Shown here one piece after another: positions 9,767 to 59,556 of a stretch of DNA of 64,000 nt. This DNA comes from an uncultured Ruminococcus sp. (GTDB lineage Bacteria; Bacillota; Clostridia; Oscillospirales; Ruminococcaceae), in NCBI GenBank assembly GCA_947345935.1, contig CAMZZN010000007.1, positions 1-64,000 of the forward strand. The letters are read 5' to 3'. Position 1 is the stretch's first letter, and each line of letters opens with the position of its first letter. Below the pieces are notes generated by a model, which saw only the letters and a program-made list of their open reading frames with translations, had not been told where the DNA came from and did no database searches. The translations under genes and the position numbers were made by a program.

Positions 9767-9821
9767 ACGACTATGTTTTATGCTATTGTTAAGGTTTGAT
9801 TTATGCTATTGATATCTGTCC

Positions 9822-9985
9822 TAATTATTTTCGTTACCTCTTTACGAGGTCACGAAAATAATTAAAACCGGGTTTCCAAAGGGTGTATTCTCCCAACGGT
9901 CGCCCGTCCCCTCTGTCACTTCGTGACATCTCCCCACACTGTGGGGAGTCACCCTTTGGCAGGGGCATGGGGACAGCGTCACCAT
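9822..9985 (+). repeat. Dispersed palindromic repeat, copy 1 (inside the prophage)
   Basis: The element starts with a 19-bp hairpin (TAATTATTTTCGTTACCTC and its near-perfect complement, 9822-9863). GGGTTTCCAAAGGG follows, then a GTCACTTCGTGAC palindrome, a CCCCACACTGTGGGG palindrome and CCCTTTGGCAGGGGCATGGGGACAG. The same modules recur at 25248, 33920 (opposite strand) and 47967. It fills most of the 241-base gap before the tape measure gene; no gene is visible there. Confidence 0.85.
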
Positions 9986-23210: not shown

Positions 23211-23286
23211 TGGTGGAGCATAGGGGATTCGAACCCCTGACCCCCACACTGCCAGTGTGATGCGCTCCCAACTGCGCTAATGCCCC
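23211..23286 (-). tRNA. tRNA-Ala (GGC)
   Basis: The minus strand reads GGGGCATTAGCGCAG, an anticodon loop CTGGCAG (anticodon GGC), GGTTCGAATCC and a 3' end GCTCC-ACCA with encoded CCA. The cloverleaf is complete at 76 nucleotides. Its 3' end faces the prophage and could form part of an attachment site. Confidence 0.95.
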
Positions 23287-23316: not shown

Positions 23317-23407
23317 TGGCGGAGATGGTGGGATTCGAACCCACGGAGCGTGTTACCGCTCAAACGATTTCGAGTCGTTCTCGTTATGACCACTTCGATA
23401 CATCTCC
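23317..23407 (-). tRNA. tRNA-Ser (CGA)
   Basis: The minus strand begins GGAGATG and ends CATCTCC-G-CCA. The anticodon loop is CTCGAAA (anticodon CGA), and a long variable arm between anticodon and T arms is diagnostic of tRNA-Ser. It is 91 nucleotides and probably co-transcribed with the tRNA-Ala downstream. Confidence 0.95.
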
Positions 23408-25163: not shown

Positions 25164-25247
25164 TGATATCGGAGTTGGCAGCTTTATGTGAACTCGTCCT
25201 TTCACTCATACCAAAGAGAGATTTCTTCTGTAGATGTCTTCATAATT

Positions 25248-25304
25248 GGGTTTCCAAAGGGGATGTACTTCCCTTTGGCAGGGGTGTGGGGACGGAGTCG
25301 CCAC
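25248..25304 (+). repeat. Dispersed palindromic repeat, copy 2
   Basis: GGGTTTCCAAAGGGG, then CCCTTTGGCAGGGGTGTGGGGACGGAGTC matches the right-hand module of copies 1 and 4, but the leading TAATTATTT hairpin is missing. It lies in the sipL-spoIVA gap and is therefore probably transcribed with the operon. Confidence 0.8.
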
Positions 25305-25349
25305 AAAAGTTGTCGGCACTGATACATAAATATGCACGGAGGTTTTAAG

Positions 25350-26826: not shown

Positions 26827-27115
26827 ATAATAACTTCGGGTTTCTTTCTGAAACTTTATATGCAATTATCGGGGGAAACCTTTCTGAAGAAAGGTTCTCC
26901 CCCGAACCCTCTTCCAAAGACTTTTAACACTAATTTAAGCCTGTTAAGGCGCACACCATACAAAAAAGAAATCTTAAGAATTTCCGGTGCGCCTTAACAG
27001 GCTTAAATTTAATACTGAAAGTTTTAGGAAAGGAGTTTGAGGAATAACCCTTTTTCAAAAGGGTTTTCCTCAACAAGTACGTGTAAAAGTTCGGAAAGAA
27101 ACCCGAAGTTATTAT
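26827..27115. repeat. MITE-like nested palindromic element
   Basis: Terminal inverted repeats ATAATAACTTCGGGTTTCTT and its complement bound the element. Inside, perfect 23-base arms (26932-26954 and 26987-27009) form a long hairpin, and smaller hairpins (CCTTTCTGAAGAAAGG; AACCCTTTTTCAAAAGGGTT) lie on either side. There is no coding capacity. The element fills the whole gap between the stop codons of two convergent genes, and its right end supplies the TAA of the following minus-strand gene. Confidence 0.85.
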
Positions 27116-47869: not shown

Positions 47870-47966
47870 AATGATCCTCCTGTTCCGGAAATAATGTCGG
47901 CAACTTATGTGATGTCCTGTTCCCATACTCATACCATAGTGAGTTTTTCTTCATTTTCATTTACGC

Positions 47967-48072
47967 TAATTATTTCAGATACCCTTTTACGGGTATCAGA
48001 AATAATTAATAATGGGTTTCCAAAGGGGGGATTCCCCCTTTGGCAGGGGTGTGGGGACAGAGTCCCCGCATA
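47967..48072 (+). repeat. Dispersed palindromic repeat, copy 4
   Basis: An 18-bp hairpin (TAATTATTTCAGATACCC and its near complement) precedes GGGTTTCCAAAGGGG and CCCCCTTTGGCAGGGGTGTGGGGACAG, the same order as copy 1 in the prophage. It lies between the acyltransferase start and the end of pfkA. Confidence 0.85.
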
Positions 48073-48089
48073 AGTGGCTGATATCGTTC

Positions 48090-48122
48090 CTAAAAGAGCT
48101 GCCGCAGGAGTGCGGCAGCTCT
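48090..48122 (-). terminator. Terminator after pfkA
   Basis: AAGAGCTGCCGCA and its exact complement TGCGGCAGCTCTT form a 13-bp stem with a four-base loop, followed on the minus strand by TTTT. The plus side also carries a T-rich run, so it may act both ways. Confidence 0.85.
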
Positions 48123-55543: not shown

Positions 55544-56761
55544 TTACTTCACAATGATCTTCCTGAACGACTTCTTTCCCTTACGGATGATCGTTTCACC
55601 TTCAAGCTTTATCTGAGCCTTGGCGTCGGTGATCTTTTCATCGTTTACGGTGATTCCGCCCTGCTGGACGAGACGGCGTGCTTCTGAAACCGAGGGGGCA
55701 AGTTCTGCCTTTACGAGGAGAGTCAGAAGTCCCATAGCTCCGTCGACGAGGTCGTCTGAGCTGATTTCTGTAGTAGGCATATTGGCGTCTGAGCCGCTTC
55801 CGCCAAAAAGAGCCTTAGCGGCAGTTCTTGCCTTTTCAGCCTCTTCTTCACCGTGAACAAGTTTTGTGAGTTCGTAAGCAAGAAGTTCCTTGGCAGCATT
55901 GAACTGAGCGCCCTCCATGTGCTGTTCCATTTCCTCGATATCCTCAACGAGAACGAAAGTCAGCATTTTCAAGCACTTGATAACATCGGCGTCGGCAACG
56001 TTTCTCCAGTACTGGAAGAACTCGTAGGGCGGTGTCTTTGCAGGATCGAGCCATACTGCGCCCTTTTCAGTTTTGCCCATTTTCTTGCCCTCGGAATTAA
56101 GGAGCAGAGTAATAGTCATAGCGTAGGCGTCCTTACCGAGTTTGCGGCGAATAAGCTCAGTTCCTCCGAGCATATTTGCCCACTGATCGTCTCCGCCGAA
56201 CTGCATATTACAGCCGTATTTTGTGTAAAGCTCCATAAAATCGTAGCTCTGCATTATCATGTAATTGAATTCCAGGAAAGTAAGACCACGTTCCATTCTT
56301 TGCTTGTAGCACTCGTGGCTGAGCATACGGTTCACACTGAAATGTGCTCCGACATCACGGAGAAGCTCGATATAGTTAAGATTCATCAGCCAGTCGGCGT
56401 TGTTCACAACGATAGCCCTATCCTCGGAAAAGTCGATAAATCGGCTCATCTGCTTCTTGAAGCAGTCAACATTGTGCTGAATAGTTTCAGGGGTCATCAT
56501 TTTTCGCATATCGGTTTTTCCGGAGGGATCGCCGATCATAGCTGTTCCGCCGCCGATAAGGACGATCGGTTTGTTTCCAGCCATCTGGAGACGCTTCATG
56601 AGACAAAGAGCCATAAAATGTCCTACATGGAGACTATCGGCAGTGGGGTCAAATCCGATATAAAAAGTAGCCTTTCCGGCATTGATAAGTTCTTCGATCT
56701 CCTTTTCATCAGTCAGCTGAGCAAGCAGACCTCGTCTTTTAAGTTCTTCAAAAGTAGTCAT
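55544..56761 (-). CDS. tyrS: Tyrosyl-tRNA synthetase
   Basis: This 405-residue class I synthetase has [16 protein letters not shown] (HIGH motif, about 33-48), [10 protein letters not shown] and KMGKT (KMSKS loop) near 230, and a C-terminal S4 RNA-binding domain (about 340-400). It charges tRNA-Tyr. No T-box leader is visible, as the epimerase gene ends 11 bases upstream. GGAG precedes the ATG. Confidence 0.97.
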
Positions 56762-56772
56762 ATTTTTCTCCT

Positions 56773-57672
56773 TTATAATAAATTTTCTTTTATATACTGT
56801 ATATAATCCTTGCGGATTATCAGTCCGCTGTTATTCTTATACCAGTCATAGGACTGTTTTAAGCCTGTTTCAAGCGGTTTTACGTCAGTCATAACAGATT
56901 CCTGATTTGTAACGTTGAGAACATATTCATAATCCCTGAACGGAAAATAAAGCCGCTGATTTATTTCATCAGATACATACCGTATTTCTGGAGTTTTGCC
57001 AAGTACGCCATAACAAAGCTTTACCCATTCGTTTATGTCAACTGTTTCCGGATTTCCTGCATTGATAATATGGCATTGCGGCTCGGTTTCGGAAATTCTT
57101 TCAATAAGTCTGCAAAGATCTTCGATATCAAAAAACTGAAGCTGCATTTTGCCGTCCTTTGGAATAAAAAAGGGCATATTTTTTTCTGCACATTCAAAAA
57201 CAAATGACTCCCTGTAAAGATTATTCATTTTTCCGTAAAGATACGGAGGACGGATAATATAAGCGTCAGGAACTTTTTTCGTAAGGTATTTTTCCGCATT
57301 TATTTTATTTGTGCCATAGGATTCCCAATGGATATTGAATCCGCATTCCTGTTCTTCCTTAAAAGGTTGTTCAAGTGTTTCAGGATAAACAGCGCTGGAA
57401 CTTATCATTATGTATCTGCCGAAATCTCCGAGAGAATCTGTGAGATCACGTACATCCTCCTCGTTATAGGCTGTAACGTCAATGATAAGATCAAAATAAA
57501 TATTACGCAATGAGCCGCCAAGATCATGACGATCATTATTTATAAGTATGACACCGTCGGACTGGGGGCGTGTATTTCTGTTCAGAACATAAACTTCATG
57601 ACCTTTTGCTGAAAAATATTCAGCGGTATATCTGCTGACAAAAACTGTTCCGCCTGTCACAAGAATTTTCAT
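56773..57672 (-). CDS. NAD-dependent epimerase/dehydratase family protein
   Basis: This 299-residue extended short-chain dehydrogenase has the Rossmann start [17 protein letters not shown] (a divergent TGGxGFIG), SSSAVYPE and a YGTNK active-site Tyr-Lys near residue 130, followed by RPPYLYG. Substrate, probably a nucleotide sugar, cannot be told. AAAGGAA precedes the ATG. It is followed by tyrS on the same strand. Confidence 0.85.
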
Positions 57673-57779
57673 ATGATCGGTTCCTTTCCTTTATTATACG
57701 GCATTGCAGTAGACAATGAAATCGTCGGGCAATTTCATGTATATCACAACCTTTCACATTACATTATGCTGTCCTACCA

Positions 57780-58643
57780 TTAATTATCAGAAATAACTGA
57801 CGGAGCATTTATATAACGGTCAATTTCATTAACCGCCATTTCAATCTGATATTCATTAAGCTCGGCAAGATATTCCTTATCGGCTATAATACGTACTTTA
57901 TGGAGATATTCTTCGCCGGAATAGAGAGTACCGTCATATTTTTTGAGACGTGTGATATGTCTCGTGACCGACTGCTCATGCTTTTATGGACAATGCTGCA
58001 GATACTTGCGGGACTGCTTACAGTTTTCGGGGTGATATTATTTCTGCTCCCCGGTCCATTCCTTATTTACCTTGGTGCGGAAAAATACTTTGCGATTCCG
58101 GTAAAAAAACTCTATAAACGCAGGGATATTGATATTTCCGATGTCGAGAAGTCTTACGATAACGGCAGGCTCCTTACCTATAAAAAATGCGGAATAAATA
58201 TCGGAACAGACTACACCGTGATATACAGCGAAAGAGCAGTCGCTGTTATCAGAAACAGCGATGTAAAGTCCTATAAGTGTCAGCGGAAGAGATGCCATTT
58301 GGCGGTATTTTGATGTAAGATCGGACTTCATGCCATGTTCACCGGGGTTTTCAAAGTGATTTTCCTGAATGTAACAAAGATATTTTTCATGCCACTCCGA
58401 CGATCTTAAATAGCTGTCGTCGAGAAATGCTCCTTTCTCGGATTCAGCCTTAATATCGGCTTTTTTCTCCCGGAAATAGGTATAAACAAAGTATGCGATA
58501 CATACAGCCGACATCGCCGGCGCAAAGACGAATGGAATATCATTCCGTATGAAAAGGAAGAAAAGCGGCGGCAACACTACAGAAAAGATAATGCCGCTTA
58601 TCAGCGTAGATTTAGGATTCGGCGGTTTTTGATTTCGACGCAT
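57780..58643 (-). pseudogene. Membrane protein gene with an inverted internal segment
   Basis: The minus strand opens at ATG 58643 (AGAGG upstream) with a two-helix membrane protein start (residues 1-123). The following 97 codons only look like natural protein on the plus strand (a membrane hairpin, then RRDIDISDVEKSYDNGRLLT and a VIYSERAVAVIRNSDV strand pattern). The minus strand then resumes in the same frame with TRHITRLKKYDGTLYSGEEY, ending at TAA 57780. Turning 57984-58274 round restores one 287-residue frame. The N- and C-terminal pieces are separately recognisable parts of one family. In the present orientation the product stops at 58038 (201 residues). Confidence 0.75.
57981..58277. 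other. Inverted intragenic segment with short inverted ends
   Basis: The borders are CTTTTATGGAC at 57981-57991 and GTCCTATAAG (complement CTTATAGGAC) at 58268-58277, imperfect inverted repeats of about 10 bases. The whole gene is codon-aligned (864 bases), so inversion between these sites keeps the frame on both sides. Confidence 0.65.
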
Positions 58644-58656
58644 TTTATCTTACCTC

Positions 58657-59556
58657 TCAGAAAAAGGAAAGCTGCATATCGCCGTAACCACGTTTGTATG
58701 CAGCGATTATGCTTTTCATTTCGTAAATTATTCCGAAGCGTCCGCATTCTTCGGTAAATATTTTCCACAACTTTCGGAATCTGGGGCTTACGCATTCATA
58801 GCGATTTCCGAAATATTCCGTATAACGCTGCCGGAGACCGCTTCCGGGAAAGCGGCTGTCGAGCTTGTCCAGAAAATATTCACGCTGATTTTCTCTCAGG
58901 GTCACGCCGAAAAAAGGATAGATACACTTTACGCCGCATTCATGGGCATGGCGGACTATAGTACGGATATTTTCTTCCGTATCTTCGATAAACGGCAGTA
59001 CAGGCATCATGGTAATGCCCGTGAAAAGTCCCGCATCAGACATTCTGGCAAGCGCATCGAAGCGTTCCGATGAAACTGAGACATTGGGTTCAAGGATCTT
59101 TGAAAGGTTATCGTCAGCAGCAGTGACCGTCATCTTGCAAAGCACTGGCGAATGTTCGGAAATTTCTTTGTAAACGTCGATATCACGTGTTATCAGTGAA
59201 CTTTTTGTAATTACGGTCACGCCGAAGTTATATGCGCTTATAAGTTCAAGAGCATGACGGGTGAGGAGCTGTTCTTTCTCAAAAGGATTGTACGGGTCGC
59301 TCATCGCTCCGGTACCTATTACCCCTGTCCGCACTTTCCGGCGGAGTTCGTCACGAAGAATAGCGAGGGCGTTTTCCTTTATACATACGGTGTCGAAATC
59401 TTCAATATGATAGCAGTCGCTCCGGCTGTCGCAGTAGATGCAGCCGTGACAGCATCCACGGTAAAGATTCATATTGTATTCATTTCCGAACCAGTCAGAT
59501 GTCCGGTTTTTCTGGAGAATTGTCTTTGCAGAAATACTTTTCAATGTAATCACCAC
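58657..59556 (-). CDS. Radical SAM protein, SPL-like family
   Basis: This 299-residue enzyme has the CxxxCxxC cluster motif CCHGCIYCDSR near residues 35-45 and the TGAMSDPYNPFEK motif of SPL-like (Rv2578c-type) radical SAM proteins. Its substrate is unknown; homologues are often found in Clostridia beside transporters or nucleotide genes. The GTG at 59556 has only a weak site and a TTG at 59547 is possible. It precedes the inverted gene by 13 bases. Confidence 0.88.
   Translation of the reverse strand: MVITLKSISAKTILQKNRTSDWFGNEYNMNLYRGCCHGCIYCDSRSDCYHIEDFDTVCIKENALAILRDELRRKVRTGVIGTGAMSDPYNPFEKEQLLTRHALELISAYNFGVTVITKSSLITRDIDVYKEISEHSPVLCKMTVTAADDNLSKILEPNVSVSSERFDALARMSDAGLFTGITMMPVLPFIEDTEENIRTIVRHAHECGVKCIYPFFGVTLRENQREYFLDKLDSRFPGSGLRQRYTEYFGNRYECVSPRFRKLWKIFTEECGRFGIIYEMKSIIAAYKRGYGDMQLSFF

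Follow-up and report, generated by a model that had tools for sequence, protein, structure and literature searches.

A 301-bp inverted segment within a membrane-protein gene of an uncultured Ruminococcus sp., probably the scar of a microinversion

The window analyzed here is a stretch of 64,000 nucleotides, bases 1-64000 of contig C7 (67,062 bases) in the draft genome (2.73 Mb, 114 contigs) of an uncultured Ruminococcus sp., and the gene under study, at 57780-58643, encodes a membrane protein whose coding sequence lies in a changed order. The start codon (58643) and the stop codon (57780-57782) share one frame on the minus strand, while for the middle of the gene the protein reading is on the plus strand; the minus-strand open reading frame (ORF) as it now stands meets its first stop after 201 residues. 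An earlier note made from the letters of this DNA had described this arrangement, including the truncation at 201 residues, and the reading of the ORFs bore it out. When the middle is turned back at 57970-58270, a single frame of 287 residues is obtained, with SLPLTLIGLLMLLW and SDVKSVTRHI at the two joints. The changed order, the borders and the truncation are direct observations, and the parts are as follows.

58268-58643, minus strand: N-terminal piece of about 125 residues with about two hydrophobic stretches, in the original orientation, start codon at 58643.
57970-58270, now read on the plus strand: inverted segment of 301 base pairs (bp), carrying a long hydrophobic stretch (probably a hairpin) and the first part of a soluble domain.
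57780-57973, minus strand: C-terminal piece with the native stop codon, in the original orientation, now separated from its start.
57970-57973, plus strand: left border, GACT, the 4-base microhomology that holds the crossover.
58267-58270, plus strand: right border, AGTC, the reverse complement of the left border.
57981-57991, plus strand: left repeat proposed in the earlier note, CTTTTATGGAC; coding sequence, out of register with the inversion.
58268-58277, plus strand: right repeat proposed in the earlier note, GTCCTATAAG; its overlap with the true right border is positional only.
58038-58643, minus strand: present truncated ORF of 201 residues, the N-terminal piece followed by the antisense of the middle.
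57900-58313, plus strand: present ORF of 137 residues over the middle.

The inversion was recognized by comparison with a sister genome (G115, contig C46), in which BLASTN covered 119,999 of the 121,658 bases of the contig. The two sequences are colinear from window base 23,211 to contig base 67,022, with flanking blocks 87–92% identical, except for the middle of the gene, which runs in the opposite direction: the sister matches 58276-58654 and 57710-57972 on the minus strand and 57970-58209 on the plus strand (expected value 3e-68). Since the N- and C-terminal pieces match on the minus strand and the middle on the plus strand, an inversion is supported far beyond chance. The remaining reversed matches to the sister came from dispersed short repeats, from a near-palindrome (26827-27115) and from the final 56 bases of the contig. 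The sister was the one relative returned by a search of genome collections, which reaches close relatives only and may omit the window's own genome, and no relative was found among viral contigs.

To place the borders, 4,525 candidate inversions were scored against a profile of 11 homologues from 10 genomes, from which the partial matches L014 and L015 were excluded. The best register, in which the border coordinates sum to 116240, scored 229.8 bits for its best candidate and 229.1 bits for exactly 57970-58270, followed by register 116243 with 225.5 bits. With the segment turned back at 57970-58270, the DNA aligns to the sister without gaps across both joints, so that nothing was gained or lost there, and the left joint was confirmed at the protein level by three outgroups (SIPFMLLGILMIV beside SLPLTLIGLLMLL). 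The crossover lies inside GACT (57970-57973) and AGTC (58267-58270). The earlier note had proposed an in-frame inversion of the middle of one gene, which the sister and the colinear homologues sustain, the rejoined protein again having 287 residues; its borders (57984-58274, sum 116258) were off by 14 and 4 bases. These borders were rejected, as their register scored at most 215.0 bits and the protein rejoined there needs gaps against the homologues at both joints. Register 116282, which has a better local match (16 of 25 bases), was likewise rejected with a best profile score of only 200.3 bits.

The gene order in other relatives was examined with the rejoined protein, cut at the borders of the earlier note, as query; the genomes compared were species representatives, with one assembly representing the species of the window. 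Matches were found in 13 of 60 genomes (12 besides its own) and, genus-wide, in 40 of 125 (39 of the 124 others), a count to be read with the incompleteness of some genomes and the fast divergence of the gene in mind. A single match runs across both joints in 29 of the 39, and the longest piece of the sister (residues 106-286) does so as well, giving 30 of 39; in G083 and G127 the two pieces lie on the same strand, and seven genomes (G003, G006, G100, G102, G106, G128 and G134) gave partial matches that cannot exclude a reversal. Wherever a locus gave several pieces (7 genomes), all were on the same strand. Homologues in the present order, which according to the earlier note would speak against an inversion, were looked for, and no reversed middle was found in the 39 other genus genomes with a match, 7 of these being uninformative. 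With the sister locus (L018) excluded, a single profile-matching ORF of at least 242 residues was present in 29 of 32 fetched loci; two further copies, L015 and L033, seem to be split, and a contig end interrupts L014. In three relatives (L032, L036 and L037), this membrane-protein family is represented by two adjacent genes in the same orientation.

The neighborhood of the gene, all on the minus strand, is also shared with relatives:

58657-59556, minus strand: upstream neighbor, a radical SAM protein, also found in the sister and in three relatives of 40–42% protein identity.
56773-57672, minus strand: downstream neighbor, of the NAD-dependent epimerase/dehydratase family.
55544-56761, minus strand: ORF that, judged from its sequence, is presumably the tyrosyl-tRNA synthetase gene (tyrS).

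The sister and the three relatives of 40–42% identity have the radical SAM and epimerase genes on either side of their copies, which are therefore orthologues. In 24 of 33 loci, tyrS falls within the fetched stretch, which reaches no more than about 1,500 bases to either side of the gene. No family model scored above the cut-off for the three window pieces (Pfam) or for four homologues (Pfam and NCBIfam); a match of the middle piece to DUF6709 (expected value 0.004) was below the cut-off and was not used. Hydropathy indicates about two hydrophobic stretches in the N-terminal part and one long stretch, probably a hairpin, opening the middle part, and the consensus of 23 homologues selected from the fetched loci contains GINIG and SY motifs in the soluble part. 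From its sequence, the product may be named only as a membrane protein linked to the presumed tyrS. The inversion removes the hairpin and the soluble domain from the frame, and the protein would thereby lose its second membrane hairpin and its C-terminal domain.

Both present frames are open, as would be expected if the arrangement were functional and the 201-residue protein or the product of the 137-residue plus-strand ORF were a new gene product. But the codons of the antisense frame coincide with those of the sense frame, and in the sister, too, this frame is largely free of stops (2 in 97 codons), so that its being open looks incidental to codon choice, and the reversed order occurred in no relative of the genus-wide search. 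A functional new arrangement is thus very improbable, and the 137-residue ORF is presumably a by-product of the flip.

The copy of the sister is itself damaged. The rejoined protein matches it in three pieces (69–78% identity), and the sister copy has internal frame-changing insertions or deletions (indels) of 1 and 4 bases at gene positions 176 and 336. Among 28 neighboring control ORFs, selected by the analyst from 23.6-64.0 kb, 23 had no frame-changing indel, and in the other 5 such indels were confined to about the outermost 40 bases of the ORF. Judged by its sequence, the sister's copy is broken independently and by other means than inversion; the gene thus looks to have been lost in the sister species also. 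About 150 bases 3' of the gene in the sister (L018, G115:C46, 2132-2284) are without a counterpart in the window.

We consider it likely, with a probability of roughly three in four, that a single recent and precisely reciprocal 301-bp microinversion at GACT/AGTC disabled a dispensable membrane-protein gene. It would have originated from an error of replication or break repair, through strand or template switching at the microhomology, and the inverted gene would be a pseudogene scar in this lineage. That the gene is dispensable is supported by the broken copy of the sister, the split copies at L015 and L033, and the presence of matches in only 39 of the 124 other genomes.

Several observations weigh against such a scar: i) the joined frame is without a stop or frameshift of its own and no later decay was found, its length differences from the sister being the two frameshifts of the sister, a 6-base in-frame difference and a 2-base indel at the stop; ii) the pairwise ratio of nonsynonymous to synonymous substitution rates (dN/dS) is 0.25 (N-terminal piece 0.24, middle 0.29, C-terminal piece 0.18; controls 0.004–0.302), so that the gene was constrained for most of the time since the split from the sister; iii) in simulations with the dS of the gene (0.57), no stop arose in 20% of the runs after neutral drift for 20% of the branch and in 8.6% of the runs after drift over 30%, the indel figures depending on an assumed rate; iv) the in-register likeness of the borders is slightly above chance at five widths (4/6, P = 0.039; 7/14, P = 0.046; 9/20, P = 0.048; 14/30, P = 0.011; 16/40, P = 0.032) and reaches P = 0.23 at one (4/10); and v) 41 recombinase-type matches are present on other contigs (23 to PF00239, 15 to PF00589 and 3 to PF01548, one of those to PF00589 being below the cut-off). 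With no stop accumulated, the scar would have to be young; alternatively, the inversion is still reversible and the gene is at times in use. There was no signal of faster change on the branch of the window, with 15 changes compared to 12 in the sister, counted at residues that are the same in three outgroups and altered in only one of the two genomes.

The borders carry little likeness beyond the 4-base core. The perfect inverted match in register is 4 bases long, which random pairs of points equal or exceed in 1.9% of 50,000 draws, and the likeness as a whole is a little above chance, with no real repeat. Of 57 inverted pairs in 57700-58700, the 25 longest include none that links one border with the other. 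At the border places the sister has GAAT and GACC, so that the 4-base match is not kept in the one relative that is close enough. The imperfect inverted repeats which the earlier note saw at the borders, CTTTTATGGAC and GTCCTATAAG, do exist (57981-57991 and 58268-58277) but are out of register with the inversion, and 9 of the 11 bases of the left arm CTTTTATGGAC also stand in the unbroken coding sequence of the sister. The note had further suggested looking for the same borders elsewhere in the genome: CTTTTATGGAC showed no excess (2 exact copies, compared to 2 and 1 for the reversed control), and the border pattern GACTNNNCAT...ATGNNNAGTC with a spacer of 270–300 occurs nowhere else in the genome, the control pattern giving one match per strand as well. 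The invertase for which it also called did not appear near the locus, as no match to PF00239, PF00589 or PF01548, the three families searched, was found on the 67-kb contig.

These data bear on the reading of the segment as a reversible intragenic inverton, in which a recombinase encoded elsewhere would flip it and exchange a 287-residue for a 201-residue form. In its favor, the inversion is in frame and exactly reciprocal, no damage is seen in the joined frame, and the genome holds 23 serine-recombinase, 15 tyrosine-recombinase and 3 IS110-type matches from which such an enzyme might come. Invertons can be served by a recombinase encoded elsewhere, so its absence near the locus is weak evidence. 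Turning back an exact inversion always recovers the frame, and the frame alone therefore gives an inverton no support. Against it stand the perfect in-register match of only 4 bases that the sister does not keep, the contig free of matches to the three families, the lack of a second site pair with these borders, the absence of a reversed piece from the 39 other matching genomes (7 of them uninformative), and a sister copy broken by other means. An inverton is therefore unlikely and lacks support, and its special form, a switch with a near-absent border repeat (the 4-base GACT core) and a recombinase elsewhere, toggling the tyrS-linked membrane protein, is decidedly so. The earlier note had left open whether the locus is a switch or a fixed scar; since the minimal borders are not kept in the sister, no match to the three recombinase families lies on the contig and the sister copy is frameshifted, the evidence leans to a scar, without proof.

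An artefact of assembly or amplification, i.e. a normal order in the cell and a contig that is wrong at this place, was also considered. The genome is a draft of 114 contigs, and amplification of DNA is known to give rise to chimeric reads with short inverted microhomology. But the contig has both joints, in exact reciprocity, an outcome that would hardly be expected from two independent chimeras, a 4-base match would be too short to mislead a k-mer assembler, and the protein searches revealed the locus only once in the assembly. We regard an artefact as quite improbable.

Other features of the contig were noted during the comparison. Window bases 1-23200 form a prophage-like block, in which 7 of 10 singly scanned proteins match named phage families (terminase, portal, head, tail completion, tape measure and tail), 1 matches an unnamed family and 2 have no match; it ends near two tRNA genes (23214-23286 and 23320-23407) and is without a match in the examined stretch of the sister except for two short matches at 9820-9959. 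The near-palindrome at 26827-27115, located between genes, has 110-base arms that are 74% complementary and an inner perfect 23-base inverted repeat, is also found at the corresponding place in the sister and is possibly a miniature inverted-repeat element. A short intergenic repeat is dispersed in the window and in the sister (9820-9894, 25239-25335 and 47945-48104), and strong hairpins form in the copy at 47945-48104 (z -5.4). At the contig end, 56 bases (C7:67007-67062) match the sister in reverse direction to the preceding block, possibly reflecting a hairpin or an assembly end effect.

Among known systems, the intragenic invertons of Chanin et al. (Nature, 2024) were reportedly detected by searching for inverted repeats and by reads that show both orientations. 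The present case resembles that class in that the reversed segment lies wholly inside one coding sequence and the present state truncates the protein; it differs in having no repeat beyond 4 bases and one known orientation, from one assembly. The gene-altering programmed inversions of Milman, Yelin and Kishony (2023) are said to have repeats and a recombinase near the locus. They are alike in that, going by the title of that work, the inversion alters coding sequence; here, neither border repeats nor, among the three families searched, a nearby recombinase was found. In two inverton surveys, inverted repeats serve to find candidates, which are then called where reads support both orientations (PMC11892184, PMC10939037), and intragenic invertible regions are mentioned in one of them (PMC10939037); counts of invertons are reviewed in PMC11868660. 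Human-chimpanzee microinversions lie at inverted matches, and template switching or microhomology-mediated repair is discussed for them (PMC8755829). Both there and here a short segment is replaced by its reverse complement with inverted matches at its borders, but the present one is bacterial, 301 bases long and has a perfect match of 4 bases.

The locus offers a warning that an inversion which can be rejoined in frame is by itself no sign of a switch, since any exact inversion passes. If the segment did flip back, it would represent an inverton likely to be missed by repeat-based searches. As it stands, it provides a clean case, resolved to the base, of a bacterial microinversion of about 300 bp breaking a gene with 4 bases of homology at its borders.
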